From Paraburkholderia flava (GTDB lineage Bacteria; Pseudomonadota; Gammaproteobacteria; Burkholderiales; Burkholderiaceae), in NCBI RefSeq assembly GCF_004359985.1, contig NZ_SMRO01000001.1, forward strand, positions 1,364,001 through 1,428,000: 64,000 bases of DNA, written 5' to 3'. A program made the translations under genes and the position numbers. The notes below the pieces were generated by a model that was given only the letters and a program-made list of their open reading frames with translations, was not told the DNA's origin and made no database searches. How positions within the stretch are numbered: position 1 is the first letter of the stretch; every line of letters begins with the position of its first letter. Positions 14,901-32,952 of this stretch are shown piece by piece.

Positions 14901-16709
14901 GGTGAAGGTGTTGGGACCGGTCAGCGTTTCGGTGCCGGTGCCGAGCTTCGTGATGCCGCCCGTGCCGCTGATCGTGCCGCCGAAGGTCTGGTTCGTCGCG
15001 TCGCCGAACGACACGTTGTGCGCGCCGAGCACGAGGTTGCCCGCCGTGCCGAGCAGCTGACCGAAAGTCTGGTCCGCGCCCGATGCGCTGATGTCGAAGG
15101 TCGCGCCCGCTCCCCCGAGATTGAGCGCCGCGTTCGCGCCGAGCGTGCCGCCCGCGCCGAGCGCGAGCGTGCCTGCGTTGACGGTCGTGCTGCCGCCGAT
15201 CGCGTTCACGCCGGTCAGCGTGACCGTGCTCGCGCCGTTCTTCGCGAGATTGCCCGCGCCGCTGATCGTGCCGGCAAGCGTGAGCGCGTTGCTGCCGCCG
15301 AGCGTCAGCGTATTACCCGCTGCGCCGAGATTGATCTGCGTGCCGAGCGTGAGGCCTGCGGCGCTCGTGTCGAGCGTTCCTGCGCCGCCGACGTTCAGTG
15401 CGCCCGTCCCCAGCGCATTCGCGTTGCCGAGTATCAGCGAGCCCGCGTTCAGGTTCGTGCCGCCGCCATATGTGTTCACGCCGGTGAGCGTGACCGCGCT
15501 GGTATCGCTCTTCGTCAGCGCACCGCTGCCGCTGATCACACCGGACAGCGTCAGCGTGTTCGTGCCCTGCACCGTGAGGCCACCCGCGCCGAGCGTGATC
15601 GCATTGCCGATGCCGAGCCCCGCCGATGCCGAGCCCAGACCGCCACCGTTCCCCGTGATCGTGCCGGCACCGAACGACGCCGCATTGTCCGCGAGCGCGA
15701 CGCCGCCGTTGAGCGTCGCATCGGCCACGGTCGACGCACCGCTCACCGTCCATGTGCCGCTGTTGACGTTCAGGTGCTGGAAGTTGATGTAGTTAGGATT
15801 CGAGATCGTTCCGGTGGCGGGACCGCCGCCGGCCTGCTGCAGCACCAGCGTGTTGTTGCCGCCCGCGCCGCCGTCTACGTTGCCCGCCGCCGCGAAGCCG
15901 AGCGACAACCCGACGACGCCCAGCAGATTGCCCGACGCACCGAGACCCGCGGTCACCGTCGAACCCGTGTCCGCAGTAAATTTATTGGTGCTGCCCGCAC
16001 CCATCGACACGCTGCCCGTGATGGTGCCGCTGTTCTCGAACGTGTTGCCGGTGCCCGGCGTGCCCGACGCCTGAAACGCGACGCGTCCGTTGATCGTGCC
16101 GTTGTTGACGAAGTTGACCTGGCCGCCGCCGTAGATCGCGACCGCAGGAAGATCGCCGGTGCCGAGCGACACGCCCAGCAGCGCGCTCGAACCGATCGTG
16201 CCGGTCGCCGTGTTCGTGATGTTCGATACGCCGCCGGTGCCGTTCTGCACCGCGAGCGCCATGCCGGTCAGATTGTTGAGGTTCAGGCCGAGTAACCCCG
16301 ACGTGCCCTTCATCGTGCCGCTGTTATTCACGGTGACCGTGCTGGCCGATGCGTTACCGATCGACGTGCCGCTCGACAACAGACTCAGCAGTCCGAGCAG
16401 CGACGGATCGATCGTGCCGGCATTGTTCAGCGTCACGTTGTTGCCGGTCAGCGTCAACGCGGTGCCGCCAAGCCCGAGCAGCACACCGATACTGCTGGTC
16501 GCGTCGGCATTCACCGTGAGGTTGTTGCCCGCATTCGAATAGCTCGGCGCGAGAGGGTTTGCCGCCCCCGAGCAGGTGACGGTCGTGCCCGCGGCCGTAC
16601 ACACCGCCTGTGCGTTTCCAATCCCGGCACCGAACAGCGCGAGGAAAACACCCATGACAGGGACGATTTTCTGCAGATCGTATGCGCTTTGATTGTCGGC
16701 GTTTTTCAC
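8949..16709 (-). CDS. giant repeat-rich autotransporter (type Va secretion), 2586 aa
   Basis: Starts at GTG 16709, with GAGGG 8 nt upstream; an ATG 7 bp upstream is out of frame. Residues 1-35 look like a signal peptide (hydrophobic core VMGVFLALFGAGIG, cleavage after AQA). The passenger carries about 18 copies of the autotransporter-associated beta-strand repeat, core GTGGIVKQGSGTETLTG followed by NTYTGGTT, at about 99-residue spacing. It should form a long beta-helix. Roughly the last 275 residues are the autotransporter barrel, from VVWAQAYGAS to the terminal GNFWWRF with C-terminal Phe. Only two Cys are near the N-terminus. Likely role: surface adhesion or aggregation (inference). No protease motif was seen. 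Confidence 0.93.
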   Translation of the reverse strand: MKNADNQSAYDLQKIVPVMGVFLALFGAGIGNAQAVCTAAGTTVTCSGAANPLAPSYSNAGNNLTVNADATSSIGVLLGLGGTALTLTGNNVTLNNAGTIDPSLLGLLSLLSSGTSIGNASASTVTVNNSGTMKGTSGLLGLNLNNLTGMALAVQNGTGGVSNITNTATGTIGSSALLGVSLGTGDLPAVAIYGGGQVNFVNNGTINGRVAFQASGTPGTGNTFENSGTITGSVSMGAGSTNKFTADTGSTVTAGLGASGNLLGVVGLSLGFAAAGNVDGGAGGNNTLVLQQAGGGPATGTISNPNYINFQHLNVNSGTWTVSGASTVADATLNGGVALADNAASFGAGTITGNGGGLGSASAGLGIGNAITLGAGGLTVQGTNTLTLSGVISGSGALTKSDTSAVTLTGVNTYGGGTNLNAGSLILGNANALGTGALNVGGAGTLDTSAAGLTLGTQINLGAAGNTLTLGGSNALTLAGTISGAGNLAKNGASTVTLTGVNAIGGSTTVNAGTLALGAGGTLGANAALNLGGAGATFDISASGADQTFGQLLGTAGNLVLGAHNVSFGDATNQTFGGTISGTGGITKLGTGTETLTGPNTFTGNTTIQAGTLALSGAASLPITGAVNLAGTGATLDISASTATPTIGELTGVADTTVALGAHTLTFGDATDQTFGGSITGTGGIVKQGAGKETLTGAHTFTGGATINAGTIALGGGGSFAATTAVSLNGAGATLDLSGATANQTIGALSGIAGSTLALGASMLTFGDGTNQAFGGAITGTGGIVKQGSGTQTLTGTNTFSGGATVNAGTLALGAGGSLAASGSVNLANSGAGFDISASGGNQTIGSLSGVGGTTVGLGANSLTFGDNTNQTFGGSIAGTGGIVKQGTGTQTLTGASTFTGGTTVNSGTLALSGAGSLSASGAVILAGAGAGLDISGSTGNQTIGSLKGTAGSTVALGSKSLTFGDATDKTFSGTIGGTGGIVKQGSGTETLTGANTYTGGTTLNAGGLIVGNNSALGTGALTVGGAATLDSSTATTLGNDVVLNAGLTVNGTNDLTLNGSISGTGSLTKAGAATLTLNGTNTYTGGTNINTGTLALGANASLSANGVVNLATGATFDLSAGSGQQTFGTLVGGGTVNLGANALTLGDATNGTFSGSIGGTGSLVKTGSGTETLTGASTFTGGTTINGGTLALGAGGSLAATGGLTINGPNAGFDISASGANQTIGALNGNGGTVTLGGNNLTFGDATSQIFGGTISGTGGIVKQGSGKETLTSANTFTGGTTITDGTLALGAGGSLAATGAVTLGGTGATFDIGGATGGQTIGALSGTAGTVALGANNLTFGDATNQTFGGSITGTGGIVKQGAGTETLTGASTFTGGATVNAGTLALSGAGSLSAGTDVNLAGLGAGLDISGATAAPTIGTLTGIVGTSVTLGGNTLTLGGATSGNFAGTIGGTGGIVKQGTGTEMLTGTNTYTGGTTINGGTLALGAGGTLAAGGGVTLNGAGSGFDISGALGGQTIGALAGTGGTVTLGANNLTFGDNTDQTFGGGIAGTGGIVKDGSGTTTLNGASTYSGGTTINAGGLIFGNNTALGTGALTVDGAATIGGNSATLGNNVVLNAGLTVAGANGLTLNGSVSGTGGLTKTGNGTLTLGGASTFTGGTTIDGGTLALGAGGSLAASGSVTLGGAGASLDISGSTGGQTIGALSGTAGTVALGANNLTFGDATNQTFGGGFTGTGGIVKNGTGTETLTGTSALTGTTTVNAGTLALAGGGSLGAGTNVNLANAGVSLDVSGATGTPTIGALSGGAGTNVSLGANSLTLGGGANGSFDGTIAGTGGIIKSGAGTQTLGTANTYSGGTTLAGGSLVVGNSGALGTGAVTVNAPSTLDANTAVTLTNPLNLNSTATLGGTQNVTLSGLVSGTGGLVKNGGAELTITGNNTFSGGTVMNAGTLTLGNAGALGTGGLTLNGGTVNGANTNIAVNSLNGAAGGTLNLGTGNLTINGGGTYAGVLAGTGAVTKTGNDLLTLSGNNTYSGPTTVTAGTLAVNGSVANSTVTVQTGATLTGVGTIGGLVVQTGGTSSIAQPGQQLNVTGNVAFQPGSTYQIAANAQQQAGVVAAGGTAQIGGGAVQVLANQGTYAPSTQYKILSATSGVNGTFSGVTSNLAFLTPSLNYDANNVYLLLARNSVQFTQVAVTPNQRAVAAALGTLPANSAVASALLSTDAPTAQRAFSTLDGELHASTKTMLLLDSRYLRDAVTDRLREGLAPTSGPLSSMSAGSALCDSSLGQGVLQQNANDPGHRGSRDACVDSRPYKPVVWAQAYGASSKLAGDNNASGIDRSTTGFVGGADMALNDTWRVGVAGGFAHSSLDNDLSSSASIDSYHVALYGGAQYGPIGVRLGTSYTWNDISMDRYQNFAGFTDHNGSSYNAQTAQVFGEVGYAIPFQRFAIEPFAGLAYVNLHTDGFTENGGGAALQSGTDSENVGFSTLGLRISTRLGSIPQAAFSAHAMAGWRHAFGNAQPTSTLSFVTGGSSFQVTGVPIARDTAVLELGLDANVTKNITLGVAYSGQYGGGSHDNAISGNFWWRF

Positions 16710-19624: not shown

Positions 19625-20533
19625 ATGAAAGACTCCGCCGACCTGCGCTTTCTGCTGACGATTCGTGCGAGCGCCAGCCTGCTCGATGCCGCGCGCAAGA
19701 TGGGGCTCACGCCGTCGGCGGTCACGCAGCGGCTGCAGCAGATCGAACGGATGCTCGGCGTGCGGCTCGTCGACCGTTCGTCGCGGCGCCTGCGCTTTAC
19801 TGAAGAGGGCGAACTGCTGTGTGCGGGTGGCCGCGAAGTGATCGAGCGCTTCGATGCGCTGCTCGACGATCTGCACACCCGCCGGGGCGGCATGGTCGGC
19901 ACGCTGAAGATCAACGCGCCGTTCGGTTTCGGCCGACGATATGTCGCGGCGGCGGCGTCGCGGTTTCAGGAACTGCATCCGGAGGTGAACGTCGCGCTCA
20001 CGCTGTCGGATGCGCCGCTGACCGAAATCGCCGATCGCTTCGACGTGGTCGTGCATATCGGCGAGTTGCGGCTGTCGAATCTGGTTGGCTATGCGGTCGC
20101 GCCGAACGCGCGGTTTCTGTGCGCGTCGCCGGCATTCGTCGAACGGCATGGCTTGCCCGAGACGCCCGAGGATCTCGCCGCGTTGCCGTGCATCGCGCTG
20201 CGCGAGAACAACGAAGACGTCACGCTATGGCATTTGAGCAAGGGACGCGTCGCGCGCAGCGTGCGCGTGCCGGCGCGGCTGAGCAGCAACGATGGCGACG
20301 TGATCCGCGAATGGGCGTATGAAGGGCGCGGCGCGATCGTGCGTTCGGAATGGGACGTTGCCGAGGATCTCGCACGCGGGACACTGGTGCGCCTGCTGCC
20401 CGCGTGGAAGCTGCCCGATGCGAACGTGATCGCGCTGACGCATCAGCGTACCGGTCTGCCGATGCGCACGAAGATGTTCATGAAGCATCTGCAGGAGCGT
20501 TTCCGGCCGGTGCCGCCGTGGCGGGCGCGTTGA
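19625..20533 (+). CDS. LysR-family regulator (divergent from DSD1 operon)
   Basis: 302 residues. Residues 1-60 hold the winged HTH (LLDAARKMGLTPSAVTQRLQQIE), followed by a LysR effector domain. It lies 95 bp from the dehydratase start and is divergent, so it probably controls that operon and itself. Codons 185-302 lie inside direct repeat A. A second copy of exactly that part, encoding identical residues but with about ten synonymous differences, lies at 26665-27021. Confidence 0.92.
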   Translation: MKDSADLRFLLTIRASASLLDAARKMGLTPSAVTQRLQQIERMLGVRLVDRSSRRLRFTEEGELLCAGGREVIERFDALLDDLHTRRGGMVGTLKINAPFGFGRRYVAAAASRFQELHPEVNVALTLSDAPLTEIADRFDVVVHIGELRLSNLVGYAVAPNARFLCASPAFVERHGLPETPEDLAALPCIALRENNEDVTLWHLSKGRVARSVRVPARLSSNDGDVIREWAYEGRGAIVRSEWDVAEDLARGTLVRLLPAWKLPDANVIALTHQRTGLPMRTKMFMKHLQERFRPVPPWRAR

Positions 20534-20678
20534 GTCCGGGTCAGGCTTCGTTCAACGTGCTCGCGCGCGTGTAACGTGCGAGCACGTTGCAGCCACGGCC
20601 CAGCGACATGCCGACCAGCAAGCCCCACGCGACAAATGAAAACAGCAGGAACGCTTCGCTGTGCGCCCACGCGCCGTG
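20177..20678. repeat. direct repeat A, 502 bp (left flank of the 6-kb insertion)
   Basis: Matches 26665-27166 base for base with no indels. I count 23 mismatches (about 95% identity). Repeat A covers LysR codons 185-302, the short gap, and the last 45 codons of the membrane-protein gene. On its left the LysR gene continues intact; on its right homology stops abruptly at 20678, inside the membrane-protein coding sequence. Confidence 0.95.
20541..20678 (-). pseudogene. 3' fragment of the DUF6622-like membrane-protein gene
   Basis: Encodes the last 45 residues (AHSEAFLLFSFVAWGLLVG to RYTRASTLNEA) plus stop. It has two substitutions against the intact gene at 27029-27526 (V for I, L for F). It has no start codon of its own and is cut at the junction with the inserted DNA. 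Confidence 0.9.
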
Positions 20679-21069
20679 ACAAGACCAGCGCGCTGCGGAC
20701 TCCGAAGGCACGCTTCGAATAGTTCCTTCTCTTTGGCAATCCGCTGTTCGAACGGAAGCTCGACCGCTGCCCGCACGGCTTCAATAATCTTGCGTGGCGC
20801 GAAGAGTCCGCGGTTCTTGCACGCAGTGCCTCCTCGACCTCTGCAATATCAGTGTTGCCACAAAACGCGCGGCCGCTGCCGACAATGACAACGCCCATCA
20901 CATCGGAGTCGGAATTCGCGCGCTCCATCGCAGCCATCAGGTCTTGCCGAACAGGCACGCTCAGCGCATTGACCGGCGCATGGTTGATGGTGACGATAAG
21001 AATGCCGTCTGTCACCTGCATGAGAACCGCGTCGAAAGAAGCGTTGGTGATGAGATTGGTGTCGGACAT
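20679..21069 (-). pseudogene. enoyl-CoA hydratase (crotonase) remnant
   Basis: Begins at ATG 21069 with a good crotonase N-terminus (MQVTDGILIVTINHAPVNAL, then VVIVGSGRAFCGNTDIAEVEE). The central crotonase region (substrate loop and second catalytic half) is missing. Near 20800 the reading shifts frame into what looks like a later segment of a FadB-type crotonase domain (KIIEAVRAAVELPFEQRIAK, FEACLRSPQ). The gene is then cut at 20678/20679, where repeat A starts. So it has an internal deletion with frameshift and a 3' truncation, and is not functional. Confidence 0.82.
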
Positions 21070-21181
21070 GAGGTTCGAAAGCTTGATGCTTGATGCAAAG
21101 AAAAATTCGCTTGCTGAGGCCGGACCACAGCAGGATTACCACGCATCGACCCGCGTATTCTTCTGCGTGCCGATGCGTCTG

Positions 21182-22498
21182 TCACTCCGGCACGACAACC
21201 GTCGCCGGCGAGCGGACGTCTGATTTTTTTGTCTGCAGACCCAGTAAACAGAGCAAAGATACCGCGGCAAGTGCACTGTAGAAGGCCGCCAGCGGCCACC
21301 ACCGTCCTGGCCAGGCATGCGCGAGCACGGTTCCGATGATTGGGGTCAGGCCTCCCGCCAGCGCAGCACACGACTGATACGACAGTGAAATGGCCGAGTA
21401 GCGGTATCGCACGTCGAAGGCATCTGTCATCAGTCCGGCCATCACGGCATACGAGCCCGACATGCACATCACGGCAATGGCGATGCCGACAACGATGGCG
21501 AGGGGTTTGCCTGTCGACACCAGGATGAACATCGGATACGGAGATAGCATGGCCAGCCCTGCAGCCCAAGCGAGAAACTTTTTCGCTCCGACACGCTGCG
21601 CCAGCCATCCCGAGAGGAGCTGGTTGAAGAAGTGCACGAAAGCGACGATGAAGAGGCAGTCGAGCATCAGCGAGCGGCTGATTCCAAGCGTTTCCGTCGT
21701 GAAACTCAGCATGAACGTGTTGCAGAACCATGCGCCTGCGACACCGATGACGTTGGCGCCAAGGCAGAGAAGCACCTTGCCCCATGCGTTGCTCAGCACG
21801 TCGAGGATGGGAAGACGAGGAGGTTTTGCGCGCCCGGCCGCTGCGGCGAACTCGGGCGACTCGGAGACACCCGAGCGGATAAATATGCCCACGATCAGCA
21901 AGACCGCGCTGAGCAGGAACGGGATGCGCCAACCCCAATCCATCAGCTGTTCTTTCGGCATATGCCCGACCGTGCGGAACGCGAGCAGCGCGAGAATCAG
22001 GCCGGCCGGGCTGCCCAGCTGTGCAAACGAGGCCAGGAATGTGCGCCTGGCTTTGGGCGCATGTTCGCCCGCCATCAGGACCGCGCCACCCCATTCGCCA
22101 CCAATCGCAATGCCCTGCGCGACTCGCAACAGCACAAGCAGAACGGGAGCAAGCGCGCCAGCAGAAGCATAGGTCGGCAGGAAGCCAATGCCCACCGTGC
22201 CAATCCCCATGATGGCAAGCGTCGCGACGAGCGCCTTCTTTCGCCCGAGTCGGTCACCCAGGTGACCAAAGATGAGGCCGCCAAAGGGTCGAGCGAAGAA
22301 CCCTACTGCGAACGTGCCGAACGAAGCGAGCGTACTGTAGAACGGGTCGCCCTGAGGGAAGAACAGCTTGCCAAACACGAGCGCCGAAGCCGTCGCGTAG
22401 ATGTAGAAGTCGTACCACTCAATGGTAGTACCAACAAAGGCGGCGAAGGCCGCGCGAGCAGGCTGGCGTGTCGGACTTTCTTGCACGGTGGTTTGCAT
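21182..22498 (-). CDS. MFS transporter, metabolite:H+ symporter (MHS) type
   Basis: 438 residues, about 12 helices. N-terminal marks of the ShiA/ProP/KgtP group are present: FVGTTIEWYDFYIYATASAL, and GGLIFGHLGDRLGRKKAL after helix 2, then RVAQGIAIGGEWGGA. Such proteins import organic acids with protons. ATG 22498 has AGGAGA upstream. It lies 68 bp after the CoA-transferase gene, so it is likely the third gene of that operon and imports the acid that the CoA-transferase activates (inference). Confidence 0.92.
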   Translation of the reverse strand: MQTTVQESPTRQPARAAFAAFVGTTIEWYDFYIYATASALVFGKLFFPQGDPFYSTLASFGTFAVGFFARPFGGLIFGHLGDRLGRKKALVATLAIMGIGTVGIGFLPTYASAGALAPVLLVLLRVAQGIAIGGEWGGAVLMAGEHAPKARRTFLASFAQLGSPAGLILALLAFRTVGHMPKEQLMDWGWRIPFLLSAVLLIVGIFIRSGVSESPEFAAAAGRAKPPRLPILDVLSNAWGKVLLCLGANVIGVAGAWFCNTFMLSFTTETLGISRSLMLDCLFIVAFVHFFNQLLSGWLAQRVGAKKFLAWAAGLAMLSPYPMFILVSTGKPLAIVVGIAIAVMCMSGSYAVMAGLMTDAFDVRYRYSAISLSYQSCAALAGGLTPIIGTVLAHAWPGRWWPLAAFYSALAAVSLLCLLGLQTKKSDVRSPATVVVPE

Positions 22499-22566
22499 CG
22501 AATGTCTCCTGAAGATTTCCGGTCTGGGTCGCCGGTTTAGTTCGAATGCCTGATTGTTGCCGGACG

Positions 22567-23757
22567 TCAGCCCTTAAGCACTCCGGCCTCGAACAGACGC
22601 TGTTGTGTGGCATCGTCGATACCGAGTTCGTCGAGCACCGCGCGCGTATCTCCGCCCAGCGCAGGTGGCGCCGAGCGATACGTAGCCGGTGTCCGGGACA
22701 ACTTGATTGGCGTGCCCGTGCCGCGATACGAGCCGATTTCAACAATCAGTTCGCGGTGAAGCGTGTGCGGGTGGTTGGCGACGGCGTCCACGGTGTGGAC
22801 AGGACCACACGGCACACCACCGCGAATCAGCGCCGTGGCGAGTGACTCGCAATCGAGCGATTGCATCAAGCCTTCGAGCACCTCTTTGAGTTCGCCGCGA
22901 TGCGCGCAACGGCTCTTGTTATCGACGAAGCGCGCGTCTTGCGCAAGTTCGGGCGCGTTCAGATGGTTAGCCAGCTTCGCGAACTGCCGGTCGTTCCCCA
23001 CCGCAAGGAAAATAGGAGCGGTCGCGGTTCGATAGCTGTCGTACGGCGTGATATTCGGATGCGCGTTCCCGCTACGCTGTGGCGTACGTCCATTACCGAA
23101 GTAGTTCGGGAGATGCGGATGCAGGAGCGAGATGCCACTGTCGTACAGCGCAATATCGAGCGATTGACCTCGGCCGCTCTTCTCCCGCTCCGCCAGGGCG
23201 AGCAGAATACCAGCCAGCGCATTGAGCCCGGTCACCATGTCGACGACGGGTAGCCCGACGCGCAGCGCAGGACCATCGGGCTCCCCGTTCACGCTCATCA
23301 ACCCCGCCATCGCTTGAATTGCTGCGTCGTAGCCAGGCAGCCCGCCGAGGGGGCCATCCGGCCCGAAGCCGGAAATCGCGCAATGAATCAGCGTCGGGAA
23401 TCGTTTCGAAAGGCGAGCGTAGTCCATGCCCCAACGTTCAAGCGTTCCAGGCTTGAAATTCTCGACAAGTACATCCGCGCCTTCGAGCAGTTGCCAGAGG
23501 ATGTTGCGGCCCTCTTCGGACGACAGGTCGACGCAGATACCTTGCTTATTGCGATTCACACCCACGAAATACGACGCGGTCTCGCCGACAAACGGAGGAC
23601 CCCAGCCGCGGGTTTCGTCTCCGTTAGGCGGTTCGAGCTTGATGACTTGCGCACCGTGGTCCGCCAATGCCTGCGTGCAGTACGGCCCACCCAGCACGCG
23701 GCTCAAATCGATAACGCGAAGTCCCTGAAGTGCGCCCGTAACCGGATTTGCACTCAT
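22567..23757 (-). CDS. CaiB/BaiF class III CoA-transferase
   Basis: 396 residues. Family marks: VIDLSRVLGGPYCTQALADHG, KLEPPNGDETRGWGPP, the VNRNKQGICVDL segment, and the catalytic Asp in GGLPGYDAAIQAMAG (about residue 165). It moves CoA between an acyl-CoA and a free carboxylate in the cytoplasm. ATG 23757 shares its A with the stop TGA of the dehydrogenase gene (TGATG), so translation is probably coupled; an in-frame GTG lies 3 bp upstream. The acid substrate is unknown. Confidence 0.92.
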   Translation of the reverse strand: MSANPVTGALQGLRVIDLSRVLGGPYCTQALADHGAQVIKLEPPNGDETRGWGPPFVGETASYFVGVNRNKQGICVDLSSEEGRNILWQLLEGADVLVENFKPGTLERWGMDYARLSKRFPTLIHCAISGFGPDGPLGGLPGYDAAIQAMAGLMSVNGEPDGPALRVGLPVVDMVTGLNALAGILLALAEREKSGRGQSLDIALYDSGISLLHPHLPNYFGNGRTPQRSGNAHPNITPYDSYRTATAPIFLAVGNDRQFAKLANHLNAPELAQDARFVDNKSRCAHRGELKEVLEGLMQSLDCESLATALIRGGVPCGPVHTVDAVANHPHTLHRELIVEIGSYRGTGTPIKLSRTPATYRSAPPALGGDTRAVLDELGIDDATQQRLFEAGVLKG

Positions 23758-25508
23758 CACGCGGTCTCCAGGCTCACCGGCATGAGCGACATTGCTTCTT
23801 CGAGCGTCATCGGTACCTCGTCGACGAGCTTGCGCATCACGCCTGCGTCGGCACTGACATTCGCCGGAGCCAACGGATCGCGCGGCATGAGCTTGTGTTT
23901 GACGATAAGGTGAGCAAGCGCCAACCGACGGTAGTCATTTCCAACACGTGCGGCCTCCGTCGCCATGAATATGGCGCTCGTTGCGTTATAGACAGCACTC
24001 GCTGCTTCACGCACGCTTTCATCGCGGCCGCACTCGGCGACGCTGTCCATCGCGGCGCTCGCGCGCTTAAAGACATCACGCAACAACCGGACCGACTCTT
24101 CGGGCAACGCGGCCTCTTCGAGTTGAGCATTGAGATACTGCCCGAGCGATTCGAGGGAGCCTTCACGGCGCGTGGCGCGAGCCACGTCGAGAGAGACGAT
24201 GTTGCTCGTCCCTTCCCAGATGGAGCCGAGGTGGGAATCGCGCACGAGCCGAGGGTCGGCCCATTCTTCGATGTAGCCAACGCCACCGCGAACTTCCATC
24301 GCGTCACCCGTTGCCTTTCTCGCGTCACGGCATGCGCGGAATTTCACCAACGGAGTAAGGATGCGAACACACCTGGCCGCGAGCGCCTCGCCACTGTCGG
24401 ACTTTGGCAGCAGTGTCGCAATCTGCATGAACATCGAACGGGCCTGTTCGGCGGACAGCATCATCTTCATCAATTGCCGTTGCATCAGCGGCATCTCGAT
24501 GAGCTTGCGACCAAATGCCGAGCGGTTGCGCGCGACATGCAGTGCTTCGGTAAGCGCGCGACGCATCAGCCCTGCGGCACGCACGCCATTCGAAAGGCGC
24601 GACATGTTAATCATGTCCGCCATCTGGTGGAAACCACGCCCGACCTCGCCGATCAGGTACGCCTCGGCGCCTTCGAGAACGATTTCTCCGCTGGCCATCG
24701 AGCGGCTGCCGAGTTTGTCCTTCAGCCGAACGATGTGATACGCGTTACGCGCTCCGTCTTCAAGCACCTTGGGAAGAAGGAACAGCGCAAGGCCCTTGAT
24801 TCCTTCAGGTGCGTCATCAGGGCGAGCCAGGACCATTGCGAGGTCGGCGTCCGCGTTGGAACAGAACCACTTGTCACCCGTCAGCTTCCAGATTTCGTTG
24901 CCGTTCGCGTCGACGCTGCGCGTGGCGCGCGTGATCGTGCGACCGGTGTCGGAGCCTGCCGCTTGCTCCGTCATGAACATCGCACCCTGGAAGAGCGTGT
25001 CGAAGTCCTGCGAGGCAAGCATCGGGAGATAGCGGTCGACCAGTTCCTTCGACCCAAACTTTCGCAGCGTGCGAGTGAGCGAATCGGTCATGCTCACAGG
25101 GCAGCAGAGACCGAACTCAGCTTGCACGAAGAGGTACGTCAAAGCGTACTTCACCAGCGGCGGCGGGGCGTCGCTCCGATGGCTCATCGAAGCAAGTCCG
25201 AGCTCGCTGTACGCAACGCGTTCGAGCGCGACGTAGTCCGGATGCTTTTCGATGCGCTGGACGGCCTCACCGCGCCGGGTCCGCTGCATCAATACCGGAG
25301 GATTGTGGTCGGCACTCGTTGCCCAAACGTCGAGTTCATCCGAAGCGCGCTGACCCAGGTCGGCCAGACGGTCTTTGACGCCGCTGTACGTGCTTTCGCC
25401 CAGAAAGCTCCTGAGCAACGGGCCAAACGAGGGGTCGCAGGTAAAGAAATTGATGCCACGGCTGTCGGGAATATTCGAAGTGGCGGGCTCTTGCCGTTGG
25501 TCGGCCAT
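23757..25508 (-). CDS. acyl-CoA dehydrogenase, AidB-like
   Basis: 583 residues, longer than ordinary acyl-CoA dehydrogenases (about 380) and close to the AidB group. FAD/substrate marks are GAMFMTEQAAGSDTG, WKLTGDKWFCSNADADL and LGSRSMASGEIVLEGA. The C-terminal VRGGVGYIEEWADPRLVRD, then SIWEGTSNIVSLDV, resembles AidB and its relatives. It probably oxidises a branched or aromatic acyl-CoA; the physiological substrate is unknown. First gene of the dehydrogenase, CoA-transferase, transporter operon, ahead of the crotonase remnant. ATG 25508 has AGGAGA upstream. Confidence 0.9.
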   Translation of the reverse strand: MADQRQEPATSNIPDSRGINFFTCDPSFGPLLRSFLGESTYSGVKDRLADLGQRASDELDVWATSADHNPPVLMQRTRRGEAVQRIEKHPDYVALERVAYSELGLASMSHRSDAPPPLVKYALTYLFVQAEFGLCCPVSMTDSLTRTLRKFGSKELVDRYLPMLASQDFDTLFQGAMFMTEQAAGSDTGRTITRATRSVDANGNEIWKLTGDKWFCSNADADLAMVLARPDDAPEGIKGLALFLLPKVLEDGARNAYHIVRLKDKLGSRSMASGEIVLEGAEAYLIGEVGRGFHQMADMINMSRLSNGVRAAGLMRRALTEALHVARNRSAFGRKLIEMPLMQRQLMKMMLSAEQARSMFMQIATLLPKSDSGEALAARCVRILTPLVKFRACRDARKATGDAMEVRGGVGYIEEWADPRLVRDSHLGSIWEGTSNIVSLDVARATRREGSLESLGQYLNAQLEEAALPEESVRLLRDVFKRASAAMDSVAECGRDESVREAASAVYNATSAIFMATEAARVGNDYRRLALAHLIVKHKLMPRDPLAPANVSADAGVMRKLVDEVPMTLEEAMSLMPVSLETA

Positions 25509-25610
25509 AGCGTGTCTCCTGGTTTATCTGCGGCGCGCCAATCCGCCGCTGTCGTTAAATTCAGGTTACGAAGCCCTTCGATAATCGTCCAATACAATCG
25601 ATGGCATGTG

Positions 25611-25629
25611 CGATAACATGTCTTTATCG
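25611..25629. promoter_or_regulatory. candidate LysR operator CGATAA-N7-TTATCG
   Basis: A perfect 6-bp-arm inverted repeat containing a T-N11-A motif, the usual LysR box. It lies 17 bp before the LysR start codon and about 100 bp before the divergent dehydrogenase gene, fitting autoregulation and control of the operon. Confidence 0.5.
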
Positions 25630-25646
25630 TTGAGGAGCGGCGGCCG

Positions 25647-26528
25647 ATGGAACTCAGACAACTCAGGTACTTCGTTGCGGTCGCCGAAGAGCTGCATTTC
25701 GGGCGTGCGGCGCGTCGGCTGTTTATCTCCCAACCGGCGCTTAGCTTTGATATCAAGCGCTTCGAAGAACAGTTGGACGTGCAGCTCCTTGAGCGCAGCA
25801 GCAAGTCGGTCGCGCTGACCAACGCCGGGCAGGTCCTGCTAGGGGAGGCTCAAAGGCTATTGCAGCAGGCAGACGAAGTGGCCAAGGTCACAATCCAGTC
25901 CGCACATGGGCTGGCTGGCCGTCTTCGGATTGGGTTCGTGAATTCGATGCTCTATCGGGATTTGCCCGAGGCAGTAGAGCGCTTCGAGGCCGAGCATCCG
26001 GCCGTTGAGATTGTTCTCAAGGAGATGAATACCGCCGAGCAGATTCGAGCGCTTCAGCAGCTCCAGATTGATTTAGGGTTCGCGCACTGGGGTCACTACC
26101 CGGCTGAGATTGAGACGCAGCTATGGATGTCCGAGGCATTTCTGTGCTGTCTGCCAGTCAATCACAAGCTTGCCAGGAAAAAGCGCATCGACCTGTGTAA
26201 CCTGCAAAACGAACCCTTCATACTTTTTCCGCGGGCGGTCTCGCCGCACTACCACGACCAGATCATCGCCGCGTGCGTCGAAGCTGGCTTTAGTCCAAGA
26301 ATCAGGCATGAAGCTCGTCTATGGCAGACCGTCGTCACCATGGTTGAGTTCGGGATGGGGGTGGCGCTTGTGCCTCAAGCGCTCGCACGCACCCAATCGC
26401 AGCGAGCCGTGTTCATTCCGCTGGAGCGCAATCCGTTCTCGTCCGAAATTCTGCGGCTGACGCGCACGGGTGGTCAAATGGCGCTCACTGAGAGCTTCCT
26501 CGAAGCGCTCGAACGCGGTCACCAGTAG
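25647..26528 (+). CDS. LysR-family regulator of the island's acyl-CoA operon
   Basis: 293 residues from ATG 25647 with GAGGAG upstream. HTH at residues about 1-60 (MELRQLRYFVAVAEELHFGR, ISQPALSFDIKRFEEQL), then an effector domain of the CatR/BenM/HcaR-like group. It is not related closely to the LysR gene at 19625. Divergent from the dehydrogenase gene with 138 bp between, so the acyl-CoA operon is the likely target and an acyl-CoA or aromatic acid the likely inducer (inference). Confidence 0.92.
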   Translation: MELRQLRYFVAVAEELHFGRAARRLFISQPALSFDIKRFEEQLDVQLLERSSKSVALTNAGQVLLGEAQRLLQQADEVAKVTIQSAHGLAGRLRIGFVNSMLYRDLPEAVERFEAEHPAVEIVLKEMNTAEQIRALQQLQIDLGFAHWGHYPAEIETQLWMSEAFLCCLPVNHKLARKKRIDLCNLQNEPFILFPRAVSPHYHDQIIAACVEAGFSPRIRHEARLWQTVVTMVEFGMGVALVPQALARTQSQRAVFIPLERNPFSSEILRLTRTGGQMALTESFLEALERGHQ

Positions 26529-26664
26529 AAATGGTTATCTGGGCGTCCGCCCTTCGCGTCGCTCTCGTACATGCGCGAAAAGGCCGGGGCCATCCGAGTG
26601 AGCGCGTCGTTCATCTATTGCCGAATCGGTCGCAACGAGTGATTGGCCGGAACGAAGTCATCCA

Positions 26665-27021
26665 GCCGCGTTGCCGTGCATCGCGCTGCGCGAGAACAAC
26701 GAGGACGTCACGTTATGGCATTTGAGCAAGGGACGCGTCGCGCGCAGCGTGCGCGTGCCGGCGCGGCTGAGCAGCAACGACGGCGACGTGATCCGCGAAT
26801 GGGCGTATGAAGGGCGCGGCGCGATCGTGCGTTCGGAATGGGACGTCGCGGAGGATCTCGCACGCGGGACGCTGGTGCGCTTGCTGCCCGCGTGGAAACT
26901 GCCCGACGCGAACGTGATCGCGCTGACGCATCAGCGTACGGGTCTGCCGATGCGCACGAAGATGTTCATGAAGCATCTGCAGGAGCGTTTCCGGCCGGTG
27001 CCGCCGTGGCGGGCGCGTTGA
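26665..27021 (+). pseudogene. 3' fragment of the divergent-type LysR gene (copy of 20177-20533)
   Basis: Encodes residues 185-302 of the LysR protein at 19625-20533 with no amino-acid change. It lacks the DNA-binding domain and the first half of the effector domain. An internal ATG at 26695 or an alternative start near 26671 would give only about 110 residues. Treated as a remnant, not a gene. Confidence 0.9.
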
Positions 27022-27166
27022 GTCTGGGTCAGGCTTCGTTCAACGTGCTCGCACGCGTATAGCGCGCAAACACGTTGCATCCGCGGCCCAGCGACATGCC
27101 GATCAGCAAGCCCCACGCGACGAATGAAAACAGCAGGAACGCTTCGCTGTGCGCCCACGCACCATG
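26665..27166. repeat. direct repeat B, 502 bp (right flank of the 6-kb insertion)
   Basis: Partner of repeat A at 20177-20678, constant offset 6488. Homology begins abruptly at 26665 inside LysR codon 185 and continues on the right into the intact membrane-protein gene. The ten differences in the LysR part are all silent. The other 13 fall in the short gap and membrane-protein part and give two amino-acid changes. Confidence 0.95.
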
Positions 27167-27526
27167 CGATTCGATCTCGTAGTGCATCAGGAATTCAACT
27201 GCGAAAGCAGCAAGCAGCACGACCAGCAACGCCGGGTCTCCCGGCACGCGCACGAGCCCGTTGGGCGCATCGATACGCAGACGCCAGCGCGACGCATGCA
27301 TCCAGCCCATCGACGCCCCCACCGCGAGCGCGACCAGCAGCGCAACGGCATCGGCCCACGTGGCGGACGGAAAGAGCTTCGGCATGTTCATGCCGCCGAG
27401 CATCGCCATCACGAGTGGAAACACGAACAGCCGGGTGGGCCGCAGCGTACGCGCATAGCAGCGGCGAACGCCGAGCACGATCAGGATCGCGAAAACAACG
27501 ATCGAATAGGTTGGAATGTGCAGCAC
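27029..27526 (-). CDS. multi-helix membrane protein (DUF6622-like)
   Basis: 165 residues from GTG 27526 with GGGAGCG upstream. Four to five hydrophobic helices: IVVFAILIVLGV, FVFPLVMAMLGG, AVALLVALAVGASMGWM, LVVLLAAFAVEFLM and FLLFSFVAWGLLIGMSLGRG. I think it belongs to the DUF6622 group common in Burkholderiales, but this is from memory of the pattern. Function unknown. A 3'-terminal fragment of a diverged copy survives at 20541-20678. Confidence 0.75.
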   Translation of the reverse strand: MLHIPTYSIVVFAILIVLGVRRCYARTLRPTRLFVFPLVMAMLGGMNMPKLFPSATWADAVALLVALAVGASMGWMHASRWRLRIDAPNGLVRVPGDPALLVVLLAAFAVEFLMHYEIESHGAWAHSEAFLLFSFVAWGLLIGMSLGRGCNVFARYTRASTLNEA

Positions 27527-27544
27527 CGCGCGCTCCCGGTAGAT

Positions 27545-27572
27545 TCAACGTAGATGAGTCAACGTAGATGAG
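27545..27572. repeat. 2 x 14-bp perfect tandem repeat
   Basis: TCAACGTAGATGAG occurs twice with no gap, 18 bp upstream of the membrane-protein start and about 200 bp upstream of the LytS-type kinase. It could be a pair of regulator sites or simple slippage. Confidence 0.85.
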
Positions 27573-27770
27573 TCCGCGGCCCATTTTAGGACTGCCGTGT
27601 CGCGCCGCACGCCGGTTGCGACGAACCGCATGCGGTAGCGACAGGACGCACATTGCGCGGATAAATGGCCGGCACGTCCCGCCGAAAATGGCCGCCACGG
27701 CCGCAGGCAGACGCGCTACCATCGACGGGCCTGTTCGATGCCTTCACGGCCACCGCTTCGCTCCCGAACC

Positions 27771-28829
27771 ATGCCCTTCGCTTCGACCTTTCTTTCGCTC
27801 AGAGATTCGGCACGCAGCAATCTGCTCGCGCGGAGACTGGCATACGTGCTGTTGCTGAGTTGTGCGCTCGGGTCGTGCTTCTGGGTGGTGTCGCGAAGCG
27901 TGACGCTCGGGTCGTCGCTGTTCACGGCGAACGCTATCGGCTTCAGCGCATTCGTGTTCGGACGGTTGCTCGCCAGATTGACCGGCGGCCGCTTTGCGGT
28001 CGCGGTACGCGCATTGATCGTCGCGCCGCTCAGCGTGATCGTCGGCACCAAACTGGCTGCGCTGGGCGGCAACGACGGCGCGATACGTCTGCTGCACAGC
28101 ACGCCCGCCCAATGGATTGCGCTTGCGCCGACGTTCCTGGTCGTCGCGATCGCTTACGCGTTCGCGACCGTGCACATCCAGTCGCTGCAGGTGCGCACCG
28201 CGCTCGAAAAACAGCGGCGTGAAGCGGCTGAACTGCGACAGTCGGAAACCGCCGCACGGCTCGCGTTGCTGCAGGCGCAGATCGAACCGCATTTTCTGTT
28301 CAACACGCTCGCCAACGTGCGCAGCCTGATCGAACGCGACCAGGCCGGCGCATCGGCGATGCTCGATCATCTGAACCGCTATCTGCGCGCGAGCCTCGGA
28401 CGTACGCGCAAACCGGTTTCGTCGCTGGAGGAGGAGCTGGAACTGATCGACGCGTTACTGTCGATTGCCGCAATGCGGCTCGGCGATCGTCTGCGCTACT
28501 CGGTCGATCTGCCGCATGCGTTGCGCCAGTTGCCGCTGCCGCCGCTGTTGCTACAACCGCTCGTCGAAAACGCGCTGATTCACGGCATCGAACCGGCGAT
28601 CGAAGGCGGCGACATCCGCATCGAAATCGCACGGGAAGCAGACATGCTGAGCCTCGCGGTCATCGATACCGGCGTAGGGCTCGGCAAGGTCAGCACGTTG
28701 CACGGCGGCGTCGGGCTCGCGAACGTGCGGGCCCGCCTGGCCGCGCTGTACGGCGATGCCGCGCGACTATCGATCGAATCGAACGCCACGCGCGGCGTCA
28801 CCGCGCGTCTTCTCCTTCCCCTGCACTGA
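27771..28829 (+). CDS. LytS/YpdA-type sensor histidine kinase
   Basis: 352 residues from ATG 27771; an in-frame ATG at 27738 would add 11. Residues about 15-135 hold four membrane helices. A short coiled coil (residues about 140-165) follows. The phosphoacceptor lies in LLQAQIEPHFLFNTLANVRSL (His_kinase family PF06580). The ATPase domain has LLLQPLVENALIHGIEPA (N box) and DTGVGLG, then GGVGLANVRARL. One base separates its stop from the next start, so it is paired with the LytTR regulator. The signal is unknown. Confidence 0.9.
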   Translation: MPFASTFLSLRDSARSNLLARRLAYVLLLSCALGSCFWVVSRSVTLGSSLFTANAIGFSAFVFGRLLARLTGGRFAVAVRALIVAPLSVIVGTKLAALGGNDGAIRLLHSTPAQWIALAPTFLVVAIAYAFATVHIQSLQVRTALEKQRREAAELRQSETAARLALLQAQIEPHFLFNTLANVRSLIERDQAGASAMLDHLNRYLRASLGRTRKPVSSLEEELELIDALLSIAAMRLGDRLRYSVDLPHALRQLPLPPLLLQPLVENALIHGIEPAIEGGDIRIEIAREADMLSLAVIDTGVGLGKVSTLHGGVGLANVRARLAALYGDAARLSIESNATRGVTARLLLPLH

Positions 28830-28830
28830 C

Positions 28831-29562
28831 ATGCCCACCGCCCTCATCGCCGACGACGAACCGAACCTCTCGACCGAGCTCGCCGCGCGCCTCGCGCATT
28901 TCTGGCCGGAACTCGACATCGTCGGGATGCCGCGCAACGGCGTGGACGCGCTCGCGCAGATCAACGCGAAGCAACCCGACTTCGCGTTTCTCGACATCCG
29001 CATGCCGGGGCTCGACGGATTGCAGATCGCGCAGTCGGTGCCGCATCTGCGCATCGTGTTCGTCACGGCTTACGACGAATATGCGGTGCGTGCATTCGAT
29101 ATCGCTGCGGCCGACTATCTGATGAAGCCACTCACCGACGACCGACTGCTGAAATGCATCGCGAAGCTGCAACGCGGCAGCCGCCCGGCACGCGACGAAG
29201 AAACGCTAACCGCTGCGGGCGCGCTCAACGATGCGCCGCTGATTCAATGGCTCACCGTCGGACATCGCGACGCGACGCACCTCGTGTCTATCGACGACGT
29301 CCACTACTTCCAGGCCACCGACAAGTACACCGAAGTCGTCACCGCGACGCACCGTCACATCATCCGCACGCCGCTGAAGGAACTGCTGTCGCGCCTCGAC
29401 CCGACGCGTTTCGTGCAGGTGCATCGCAGCGTGATCGTGTCGCTGGCGCAGATCGAACGTATCGAGCGCGATCTGCTCGGACGGCAACGCATTCATTTGC
29501 GGCAGCATGACGAGACGCTGCCGGTGAGCCGGAGTTATGGGGCGGTGTTCCGGCAGATGTGA
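28831..29562 (+). CDS. LytTR-family response regulator
   Basis: 243 residues. Residues 1-120 are a receiver domain: acidic pair ADDEPN, phosphoacceptor Asp in FAFLDIRMPGLDG, Thr in VFVTAYDEYAVRAFD and Lys in YLMKPL. Residues about 140-243 are a LytTR DNA-binding domain (VSIDDVHYFQATDKYTEV, LDPTRFVQVHRSVIVSL). It is the partner of the kinase just upstream. LytTR proteins bind pairs of short direct repeats; a direct repeat lies at 27545-27572, though its 14-bp period is shorter than usual for this family. Confidence 0.93.
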   Translation: MPTALIADDEPNLSTELAARLAHFWPELDIVGMPRNGVDALAQINAKQPDFAFLDIRMPGLDGLQIAQSVPHLRIVFVTAYDEYAVRAFDIAAADYLMKPLTDDRLLKCIAKLQRGSRPARDEETLTAAGALNDAPLIQWLTVGHRDATHLVSIDDVHYFQATDKYTEVVTATHRHIIRTPLKELLSRLDPTRFVQVHRSVIVSLAQIERIERDLLGRQRIHLRQHDETLPVSRSYGAVFRQM

Positions 29563-29669
29563 CGAAGAGAGATACCGCTTGCTTGATCGACGTTTCAGCA
29601 CAGCCTGAAACATTCATGCGCCCGCGCGGAGGAAACTGATGTTTCTCCCACTGCATCGAGGCCGCCGTC

Positions 29670-30008
29670 ATGACGATCACCTGCTTTATCCGCTATGAAA
29701 TCGATCCGTTCAGGAAGGACCTGTTCAAGACGTATGCGGACAACTGGGCAAGCATCATTCCTCGCTGTGGTGGTCATCTGCTGGGCTATTTTCTGCCGCA
29801 CGAGGGCACCAATTACGAAGCGTGGGGGCTCGTCGCGTTTGCCGATCTCGCGGCCTATGAGATCTACCGGAAGCGATTGAAGGAAGACGAGAAGGCGTGC
29901 GCGAACTTCGCGTTTGCGGTGCGTGAGCGGTTTATTCTGAAAGAGGAGAGGACTTTTCCGGAGGTCGTCGATTCGACCTGGTTGAAGGCGCCGGTAGCGC
30001 CTGCATAA
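29670..30008 (+). CDS. NIPSNAP family protein
   Basis: 112 residues with the NIPSNAP-type dimeric alpha/beta barrel fold: [52 protein letters not shown]. Bacterial members are small cytoplasmic proteins of unsettled function, sometimes near catabolic genes. It stands alone 107 bp after the LytTR gene and before a terminator hairpin. Confidence 0.85.
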
Positions 30009-30028
30009 AAGGGCTTTTGCGGTTCTGG

Positions 30029-30051
30029 GCGTGTGCGCTGAACGCACACGC
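30029..30051. terminator. hairpin between convergent NIPSNAP and binding-protein genes
   Basis: A perfect 9-bp stem GCGTGTGCG / CGCACACGC with a 5-nt loop, ending 1 bp before the minus-strand gene's stop. No long T-run follows, so termination is likely but not certain. Confidence 0.55.
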
Positions 30052-30052
30052 G

Positions 30053-31030
30053 TTACGCCAACCCCGGCGGCGCAGCGCGCGCAACTTCAATCGCCTTCGG
30101 CAACAGCTTCAACTGCAGAAACGCATCGGCGATCCGCTGCTGATCGGCGAGCGCGTCGCGCGAAATCGGCTCGACGCCATAACGCAGACGCTGCAATGCC
30201 ACGTCGACGACATCGTGCGGTAGCCCCCACAACCGCGAGAATTCGTCGGCGGCTGCAGAGCGGTTCGACTCGATCCACTTGTCGAGCGCGATCAGTTCCG
30301 CGAGCGCGACGCGCAGCACGTCGTCGTTTTTCTCGGCATAGCGCTGCGACGTGAAGTAGTACGCGCGATTGCCGACCACGCCGGTGCCGTCGGCGACGAT
30401 GCGCGCGTTCGCCGTCTTCTGCGCGACGGCGAGAAACGGATCCCAGATAGCCCATGCATCGACGGCGCGCGTTTCGAATGCGGCGCGCGCATCGGACGGC
30501 GATAGCCATACCGGTGTCACGTCGCGATAGTCGAGCTTCGCGGCCGCCAGCAATCGCACCAACAGGAAGTGCGTATTCGAGCCTTTGGTGAGCGCAATCC
30601 GCTTGCCCTTCAAATCCCGAATCGACGTAATCGGCGAATTCGCCGGCACGATCACGGCCTCGCTCGCTGGACGCTTCGCGGTCTGCCCGTAATAGACGAT
30701 CGGCGCGCCGGCCGCCTGCGCGAAAATCGGCGGCGCTTCGCCGACGTCGCCGAAATCGATCGACCCGACGTTGAGCGCTTCGAGCTGCGGCGGCCCTGAC
30801 GGAAACTCGGTCCATTCGACTCGGGTGCCGCTCGCGGCGAGCCGCTTTTCGAGCGTGCCGCGCGCCTTCAGGATGCTGAGCGATCCCTTCTGATAACCGA
30901 TGCGCAGCACGCGTCCGGTCGATGCGTTTGCGCCCTGCGCACGCGCGCCCGGTAGCGTTGCGCCCAGCGCAAGCGCGGCGAGTCCGGTGCCGATGAAGCC
31001 GCGACGGCTCGTCGATCTAAAACGCGTCAT
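30053..31030 (-). CDS. aliphatic sulfonate-type ABC substrate-binding protein (SsuA-like)
   Basis: 325 residues from ATG 31030 (GAGAG upstream). The N-terminus TSRRGFIGTGLAALALG is a twin-arginine signal ending near ARA. The mature protein is a SsuA/NrtA-type two-lobed binding protein: RIGYQKGSLSILKARGTLEK, FGDVGEAPPIFAQAAG, AIWDPFLAVA. It would catch an alkanesulfonate, taurine or similar ligand in the periplasm. No cognate permease or ATPase is next to it, so it either works with a transporter elsewhere or is an orphan. Confidence 0.88.
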   Translation of the reverse strand: MTRFRSTSRRGFIGTGLAALALGATLPGARAQGANASTGRVLRIGYQKGSLSILKARGTLEKRLAASGTRVEWTEFPSGPPQLEALNVGSIDFGDVGEAPPIFAQAAGAPIVYYGQTAKRPASEAVIVPANSPITSIRDLKGKRIALTKGSNTHFLLVRLLAAAKLDYRDVTPVWLSPSDARAAFETRAVDAWAIWDPFLAVAQKTANARIVADGTGVVGNRAYYFTSQRYAEKNDDVLRVALAELIALDKWIESNRSAAADEFSRLWGLPHDVVDVALQRLRYGVEPISRDALADQQRIADAFLQLKLLPKAIEVARAAPPGLA

Positions 31031-31217
31031 GGATGCACTCTCTCGAAGATGAATAAGCAGCGGCCCACGCCGCACGAATCGCTGCCGATACTACGGCGAC
31101 GCTTCCGGCGATGGAACGAATTCATTTCGAAATGCTTATCTGCGGACTGTCGATACTCGTTCGTCGCGATGATCGATCGTGCGCACAATGCGCTGCGTTC
31201 GCCGAAAGCATTACCGG

Positions 31218-32213
31218 CTAGTTCCCTCTCCCGTCGGAAGGGGCGTCGAGTTCGGCTTTATAGCGGCGGTTGATCGTATCCGCATCGACACCGGCAATCC
31301 TCCCAGTATGTTCGTCCTCATCCCAACCTACCTCATAGAACTGGTCGCCGCGCGAAAAATACATATGCTTCGGCTCAATGAAAGTAAACGCATCTGGAGG
31401 TGCCATGTCCTTGAACACTGCCGCGCCGTCGAGACGCAGATACACGAGATCATTTCCTGTTCGTGCGAGCATGCCGTTCATTCCGAACGAACCGGAATTC
31501 GGGTCGATCGTGAGTGTCGCGTCAAACCCATAGTCGATGCCGCGCCCCGGCTGGCTGACAAACTTCAATAATTCGAAGTGGGCGAAATCGATCTCCGGCA
31601 TCGGTTCGCCATTCACAAACAGCTTTCCGCGGCTGCGCGAGAAATGAAAATTGCGCCACTGTTCCTCCTTGAATGGAAAAACAAGGGAGAAATCCTTCGG
31701 GTCAGCGCCTTCGATTTTCTTGTTTTCGAAATACACGGACGAGTCGTCTGCCGCGAAATATTCGAACTGGTCGCGCTGCCAATCTTCGTGGGATGCCACA
31801 CCGTCGTTCGGAATACGGTGGAATGCCGGTGTGAGCGTAGTCATCAGTGTCAAATCGCGGTCTTCACGTTGAACCTCCGGACTGCCGCGAGAAAGAATGT
31901 CCATATAGGAATAGCTGGTCATCCAGTAGACAAGATCTTTCTGCACCACATAGTTCTTCGAGAGGAAGCGCGTATTCGCCGCACAGGTCTGGGTTTTTCC
32001 CTGCGTCCAGGTCACCTGACCCGGCTGGGTGAATTTGCCGTGGCGCGTCTCATGACAGATACCCACTTCGTATTGCCCGGACGCATCCCGGTATCCGGCA
32101 CTCTGGTATCCGCCATCGCTGCTGAATACCGATCCAAGGAATGCAATAAGCCCGCTGGCGATCGCCAGCAGCAAGACACCTATGATCAGCGTACGAAGCC
32201 GGGGTATTTTCAT
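31218..32213 (-). CDS. DKNYY-family membrane-anchored protein
   Basis: 331 residues. A single N-terminal membrane helix (TLIIGVLLLAIASGLIAFLG) precedes a periplasmic domain. That domain shows repeats of the DKNYY type, for example FAADDSSVYFENKKIEGADP and DAFTFIEPKHMYFSRGDQFYEV. In this family each unit is thought to form a beta structure of unknown binding role. It is read divergently from a frameshifted membrane gene about 100 bp away. Codon use here is less G+C-biased than in neighbours, which suggests transfer (by eye). Confidence 0.78.
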   Translation of the reverse strand: MKIPRLRTLIIGVLLLAIASGLIAFLGSVFSSDGGYQSAGYRDASGQYEVGICHETRHGKFTQPGQVTWTQGKTQTCAANTRFLSKNYVVQKDLVYWMTSYSYMDILSRGSPEVQREDRDLTLMTTLTPAFHRIPNDGVASHEDWQRDQFEYFAADDSSVYFENKKIEGADPKDFSLVFPFKEEQWRNFHFSRSRGKLFVNGEPMPEIDFAHFELLKFVSQPGRGIDYGFDATLTIDPNSGSFGMNGMLARTGNDLVYLRLDGAAVFKDMAPPDAFTFIEPKHMYFSRGDQFYEVGWDEDEHTGRIAGVDADTINRRYKAELDAPSDGRGN

Positions 32214-32318
32214 TTTTCTGACTGGATCCTGTTGATCCGCCTATCGGATGACGCCATTGACCATACCGATCGCTTCGCGCATATTCGCACCGATCGATCA
32301 GACAACACAGCATCCTAT

Positions 32319-32952
32319 ATGAGTCGAAAGAGTCCTGAGAGGAAGGCATGGCGCAAGAGCGCGGTGGAAGCCAGGGCACGCGAAGCCGCGACTTCCCCTT
32401 CGGTTGCGGCTGTCAATCGCAGGCCTGCCCTATTCGGTGCACGAACCCGGATGCTCGCCCCGCTGCTTGTCACAGTGGGATGTGCGTACATACTGCTCAA
32501 GGGAATGGTGTGGGCGGCCAATCGCATCGGCATGCGTAACGTGGGTTCACTACGACTATCCCGTCGCTCGCACGACATATCTGAACCACAGTCCATACAC
32601 GACGCTCGTCAGCAGCGAGTACACGTGGAGCTGGAAGCTGCTCGCCCTCCTGTCCCTTGCACTTGGGTCTTTCGCGGGACGCTGTGTCTGGCACGGCACC
32701 GTTCGCGCGGCGTTCACGCGACGCGCCCTCTGGCTCATGACCGGTTGGATTCTAGGCATCGCATTGCTGATTGCCGAAATCGAGCTGGCATTTCGAGGCC
32801 TCATACCGTTCATCCCGCGTATTTCGGGTTGGGGATGGGACGTATTTGGCATTGCATGGCTGCTTTCCGGCCTTCAGTTCTGCGCATTGTGGGGTTGGCT
32901 GATGAGTCGTTGCGGCGTTCCGAAAGAGGACATCTTTACACGCGATTCCTGA
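32319..32952 (+). pseudogene. small membrane protein, probably frameshifted
   Basis: From ATG 32319 the frame gives a basic N-terminus and a helix (MLAPLLVTVGCAYILLKGMV, then WAANRIGMRN). It then becomes nonsense. A shift of one base at the GGG run 32543-32545 continues into VHYDYPVARTTYLNHSPYTT and three more good helices (LLALLSLALGSFAG, ALWLMTGWILGIALLIAEIE, FGIAWLLSGLQFCALWGWL), ending at 32952. Removing one G would give a 210-residue, four-helix protein. Either a real disruption or a base error in the assembly. No family recognised. Confidence 0.6.

Follow-up and report, generated by a model that had tools for sequence, protein, structure and literature searches.

We analyzed a window of 64,000 nt from the soil bacterium Paraburkholderia flava (contig NZ_SMRO01000001.1; all positions below are those of the window, and G-numbers are genome labels), in which a segment of foreign DNA, termed X, lies between two diverged direct repeats, A and B. 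The repeated stretch covers the end of a LysR-family regulator gene and the end of a small gene convergent to it (Table 1). Repeats A and B aligned over 502 bp with 23 mismatches and without gaps, exactly at the coordinates given in the original prediction, and their starts were 6,488 bp apart. The repeat edges were sharp: just outside them, bases agreed at 5 of 24 positions on the left and at 2 of 25 on the right. On the side of repeat A, the LysR gene was complete but only the last codons of the convergent gene remained, and on the side of repeat B the reverse was found. Each repeat ran on into the chromosome at one edge only and was interrupted at the opposite one (A intact on the left, B intact on the right), a geometry that had been predicted and was borne out by the open reading frames (ORFs) and the alignment. 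The target sequence is thus repeated in direct orientation at both ends of the foreign DNA.

In the genome of the strain itself (G000), the 502-bp sequence was present as A, B, and one weak 138-bp match at 72% identity. A blastn survey (E-value 1e-10) of 1.6 Mb of the 6.97-Mb genome (C1 600001–1800000 and C2 1–400000) for same-strand repeats of at least 100 bp and at least 80% identity, located no more than 40 kb apart, revealed six pairs; A/B was the only pair longer than 240 bp and the only one with identity above 90%. The pair is not a product of chance. No second comparable pair, which would be a sign of a recurrent mechanism in the genome, was found in these 1.6 Mb. An assembly join of two co-cultured strains, between which a divergence of about 5% would be plausible, is highly improbable in view of the lack of another such pair in the surveyed part, the reported completeness of 100% and contamination of 0.07%, and the presence of a foreign cargo and an insertion sequence (IS) shard between the copies.

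All ten mismatches in the LysR coding part were silent, as had been claimed before (nonsynonymous divergence, dN, 0; synonymous divergence, dS, 0.12), with 33% silent expected for unselected change (P ~ 1e-5). Of the remaining 13 mismatches, one lay between the genes and 12 fell within the convergent gene; ten of the latter were third-position and silent (P = 6e-4), and the other two changed amino acids (F/L and I/V), giving dN of 0.02 and dS of 0.38. When the ten LysR changes were polarized with the outgroups G001 and G055, A carried four derived states (one supported by a single outgroup) and B likewise four, and two changes had no polarity; thus, neither copy is the decaying one. Since LysR is broken in B and the tail of the convergent gene is broken in A, the almost exclusively silent changes indicate that the alleles diverged while both were functional, in two separate chromosomes. 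Judging by this substitution pattern, the A/B divergence is older than the insertion, and the insertion is young relative to the allele split. The earlier argument that a 5% divergence speaks against a fresh duplication is upheld in this form, as the silent pattern in the gene remnants places the divergence before the duplication. The same pattern is a strong argument against an old duplication diverging in place, which we rejected. The mismatches extended over repeat positions 39–500 of 502; hence, two full-length alleles are present, as predicted by a single-crossover insertion.

Silent divergence was about threefold lower in the LysR part than in the convergent gene (P = 0.02, based on a rough site count; P = 0.0045 for raw mismatch density), which may reflect an older exchange between alleles or gene-specific rates. 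Identical runs common to A and B reached 84 bp, and the first 38 bp of B were the same as in A. These features leave some room for the following scenario: X was inserted with an identical 502-bp duplication, and one repeat with its flank was later replaced by a diverged allele from a related strain. The 38-bp run could accommodate the end of such an exchange, and the uneven dS hints at more than one exchange. We consider this course of events quite unlikely, because a replacement of A would have to end no more than 2 bp from the insert (positions 497 and 500 differ), a replacement of B would have to end inside the 38 bp, and two events would be needed while the 502-bp target duplication itself is left without explanation. 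A molecule arriving with a complete 502-bp allele of its own would require no such coincidence.

Several features of the repeats were also recorded. The headless LysR fragment of repeat B (26671–27021, plus strand) has remained open, with TTG as a possible start codon; it matched the LysR substrate domain over half a domain and lacked the DNA-binding part. The convergent gene, called a membrane-protein gene in the original prediction, had protein relatives at 50–55% identity in G015 and G043, as well as in other genera. In its part of the repeat (20540–20678 in A and 27029–27166 in B), 8 differences were clustered within 31 bp at repeat positions 389–419. A near-palindromic stretch of 37 nt at the end of this gene (20553–20589 and 27041–27077) was present in both repeats, was better preserved within A than between the copies, and is possibly a shared terminator.

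The genes of X and the other features of the locus are listed in Table 1. The piece of a 3-hydroxyacyl-CoA dehydrogenase gene at the left end (about 38–39 aa) was 64% identical to annotated 3-hydroxyacyl-CoA dehydrogenases (E-value 8e-10); a PDB search with this piece did not support its identity. Together with the adjacent hydratase piece, it probably represents one fusion gene with sequence missing between the two parts.

Table 1. Features of the LysR locus and of segment X in the analyzed window
Feature	Position	Strand	Remarks
LysR-family regulator, intact	19625–20533	+	ORF; Pfam HTH_1 and LysR_substrate; 3' end within repeat A
Repeat A	20177–20678	+	Resident LysR gene (intact), 3' portion; convergent gene, truncated tail
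Junction J1	20678–20679	.	Convergent-gene tail against broken 3-hydroxyacyl-CoA dehydrogenase gene
Foreign insert X, 5986 bp	20679–26664	.	88–90% DNA identity to G398, G426, and G453 over most of its length
Middle piece of 3-hydroxyacyl-CoA dehydrogenase gene, cut at J1	20679–20845	-	Stretch without homology in G398; probably enoyl-CoA hydratase fusion
N-terminal piece, enoyl-CoA hydratase domain	20852–21069	-	Pfam ECH_1; 83% protein identity over 77 aa to G398
MFS transporter, intact	21182–22498	-	Best NCBIfam model metabolite/H+ symporter, below cut-off
Class III CoA-transferase, intact	22567–23760	-	Best NCBIfam model succinate-glutarate CoA-transferase, below cut-off
Acyl-CoA dehydrogenase, AidB-type N-terminus, intact	23757–25508	-	
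Second LysR-family regulator, intact	25647–26528	+	Distinct from the LysR of the repeats
Internal shard (125 bp) of IS5-family transposase gene, with stop codon	26540–26664	-	Front and rear of the gene missing
Junction J2	26664–26665	.	IS5 shard against LysR fragment; up to 3 bp (GGC) common
Repeat B	26665–27166	+	LysR 3' fragment without head and 3' part of the intact convergent gene
Convergent small gene, intact	27029–27526	-	ORF; no Pfam match

The DNA of X was compared with other genomes (363 of 398 scored, 290 with some match). Its nearest relatives, at 88–90% identity, were G398, G426, and G453, all from g10, another genus of the same family; matches in its own genus did not exceed 73% over the four-gene stretch and reached 77% for the CoA-transferase alone. 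Four proteins of X were 94–97% identical to their counterparts in these three genomes, and third-position G+C content was 69–73% in the four X genes versus 78–82% in six neighboring genes. Protein identity to g10, together with the lower third-position G+C content, shows that X is foreign. In G398, the X-like cluster adjoins genes that exceed the respective NCBIfam cut-offs for glutarate dioxygenase GlaH, L-2-hydroxyglutarate oxidase, and 3-oxoadipyl-CoA thiolase, and this neighborhood suggests that X is a cargo involved in the breakdown of dicarboxylic acids. A glaH gene was not found in the genome harboring the window. Neither replication nor transfer genes were seen in X. A total of 362 plasmid records matched X at 60–90% identity, none of them containing at least 80% of X in one place. 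In G398 (L134, from 11880), the enoyl-CoA hydratase frame adjoining the cluster stops after 110 residues and is homologous to the window for only about 77 of them. It is thus broken in G398 as well, and breakage may occur readily at this side of the cluster.

On the right side of X, homology to G398 and G453 stopped at position 26529 and that to G426 at 26539, and the IS5 shard filled the rest up to repeat B. The shard corresponded to approximately codons 17–58 of an annotated relative, so J2 lies within the transposase gene and not at its end. It was 91% identical to a sequence of P. phymatum pBPHY01 and 81% identical to an annotated IS5-family transposase of Pandoraea; the microhomology with the LysR edge at J2 is GGC in the former relative and only GC in the latter. 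The shard itself was the single place in the genome where this sequence was found. Between the two 60-bp ends of the insert, there was no exact inverted match of at least 7 bp, and 6 of 20 positions agreed in register. The near-palindromic stretch described above forms an inverted A/B pair (the only one between A and B among 25 of 30 inverted pairs listed, with a minimum of 20 nt), located inside the repeats and not at the insert ends. Transposition of an IS5 element or another transposon was rejected: the shard has no ends, no inverted repeats were found at the insert ends, and the duplication is 502 bp and not short. The terminal inverted repeats and short target duplication named in the original prediction as favoring a different mechanism were not found at the insert ends.

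Nine reading frames of the insert were scanned for integrase and recombinase families, and none was found in them (further overlapping frames were unscanned), in line with the earlier claim that no integrase is needed. A decayed genomic island, brought in by a site-specific integrase using an attachment site that carried spare 3' ends of both genes, would agree with the habit of islands residing in gene 3' ends, often with a silently diverged spare end. This origin is nevertheless very improbable, given the result of the integrase scan and a repeat far longer than a usual attachment site.

The site was further examined with the 502-bp sequence in 144 genomes of the same genus, its own included, 106 of which gave some match. 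Among the matches listed, the good ones in the 143 other genomes stopped at or just past the LysR stop codon (repeat position 362 or lower); a single match, in G079, extended well past this junction (about 58 bases, positions 330–395), being marginal with an E-value of 8e-4, and a few short matches lay wholly elsewhere. The nearest other genome of the genus was 84% identical, in the LysR part only. An uninterrupted LysR/membrane-protein pair, which the original prediction expected in strains without the segment, was not seen among the listed matches, all of them from other species. The sequence of G001 was identical over 354 bp to that of P. acidicola ATCC 31363. Downstream of LysR, G001 has about 76 bp and then the sequence found at window position 33031, which we take to be the front of a leuA-like gene; in G055, about 785 bp of unmatched DNA precede the same sequence. 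Block 27022–33030 was not found beside LysR in these two nearest relatives. Thus, the block is itself accessory, and A and B derive from lineages owning at least its start. It comprises the convergent gene and genes for a histidine kinase, a LytTR response regulator, a NIPSNAP protein, an NMT1-like binding protein, and a DKNYY-family protein.

A tree was built from 21 rows, namely A, B, and the 19 loci kept out of 30, each species being represented once. A and B were sisters in it with support of 99/90, next to G001 and G055. The original prediction had stated that sister copies with no outside donor clade would favor another mechanism. Formally, this is the topology obtained; since each species is represented by one genome, the tree cannot show a donor clade within the species. 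The window also contains a giant open frame (8949–16709, minus strand) of 2586 aa with repeated glycine-rich units, presumably autotransporter-like.

Two diverged alleles, each under functional selection, flank a foreign cargo at which neither transposon ends nor an integrase were found. The best explanation, which we hold with slightly better than even confidence, is the insertion of X by a single RecA-type crossover of a circular molecule. A non-replicating circle of about 6.5 kb, consisting of the foreign genes of X and one 502-bp LysR/convergent-gene stretch from a closely related strain, would have entered the ancestor of the strain, and one crossover within the 502 bp would have inserted the whole circle, so that X became flanked by a copy on either side. 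The repeats would then be mosaics, A changing from resident to donor sequence and B from donor to resident. The ring probably originated from a linear piece of a donor's chromosome that already had X and the IS5 remnant placed against the LysR tail (J2); ligation of the two ends of this fragment would have produced J1. The genome encodes Ku, whose profile also matched in 1 of 14 control genomes, and ComEC, which matched in 10 of 14; end joining via Ku and DNA uptake via ComEC are conceivable. The circle, its source, and the point of crossover are inferred. The geometry proposed in the original prediction has gained support from the two full-length alleles and from a precedent of partial duplication in Escherichia coli (PMC3240628), with the circle remaining the deduced element. 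As for the donor, predicted to be a related Burkholderiales strain, two sources have to be distinguished: the 502-bp allele resembles one from a very close relative (dS of 0.12 in LysR), and the cargo looks ultimately derived from another genus.

Several points weigh against this explanation. No ring, donor, or X-free strain of the same species was seen; the threefold difference in dS between the halves of the repeat is not predicted by a simple single-crossover story; the delivery of X has no explanation, as it carries no visible replication or transfer gene; ComEC, so frequent in the control genomes, is no proof of competence; and the E. coli precedent concerned a conjugated plasmid (PMC3240628). 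In addition, the same sequence could result if a linear molecule was joined by a single end. In that case, a fragment consisting of X, the IS shard, and the partial LysR and convergent genes would have recombined homologously on the right, its left end would have been joined illegitimately at 20678, and the resident copy would have been kept as A. This accounts for two diverged alleles and random-looking ends, and fits the microhomology of up to 3 bp at J2 and the presence of Ku; the remark in PMC3240628 that one-sided events are perhaps commoner in naturally competent species allows for it. Homology-facilitated illegitimate recombination is, however, described there with target deletion and not duplication, in 4 of 60 E. 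coli clones, and we consider linear entry unlikely. X might also be a metastable integrase-free mobile unit that excises as a 6.49-kb ring via its 95% identical repeats and re-enters the same place in other strains, with 0.5 kb of chromosome as its address; we regard this as very unlikely.

The event is of a known kind, and the locus is an unusually legible, well-preserved natural scar. Recombination scars are usually identical or lost, and gene gain without mobility genes is thus hard to see; here, the differences in the two gene remnants are almost all silent, which places the divergence before the insertion and makes the scar readable. The single-crossover route is known mainly from laboratory plasmids. 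If the proposed mosaic is true, the locus is a natural case of that route, with a cargo of another genus arriving on the DNA of a near relative.

No parallel was found among the papers listed on diverged repeats and islands, as judged by titles and the beginnings of abstracts. As in a site-specific genomic island, foreign genes are enclosed by direct repeats situated at the 3' ends of genes; the locus differs in the length of the repeat (502 bp) and in the lack of an integrase in the frames scanned. Merodiploids arising during transformation of Streptococcus pneumoniae (PMC3784515) are similar in that partly homologous incoming DNA leads to direct duplications, but these are tandem duplications of ~100–900 kb formed via sister-chromatid exchange. 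As for homology-facilitated illegitimate recombination, two junctions, one of them homologous and the other illegitimate, would be enough here too; the products of this process in PMC3240628 have lost target DNA, whereas 502 bp are duplicated in our locus. The closest comparison is with the E. coli pJA2 clones of the same study. In that study, 56 of 60 clones gave a polymerase chain reaction product diagnostic of partial duplication, and 14 sequenced clones had duplications of 109–950 bp, which the authors attributed to a single crossover of a circle from which some of the homologous sequence was missing, most likely because the molecule had been partially degraded and then recircularized; the other four were apparently true one-sided illegitimate events with target deletion. 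Unlike those clones, the present case involves a natural chromosome, repeats diverged by 5%, a catabolic cargo, and a circle deduced from sequence. The two share the same basic arrangement: foreign DNA that came to lie, with no integrase, between partial direct duplications of the target, of 109–950 bp there and 502 bp here.

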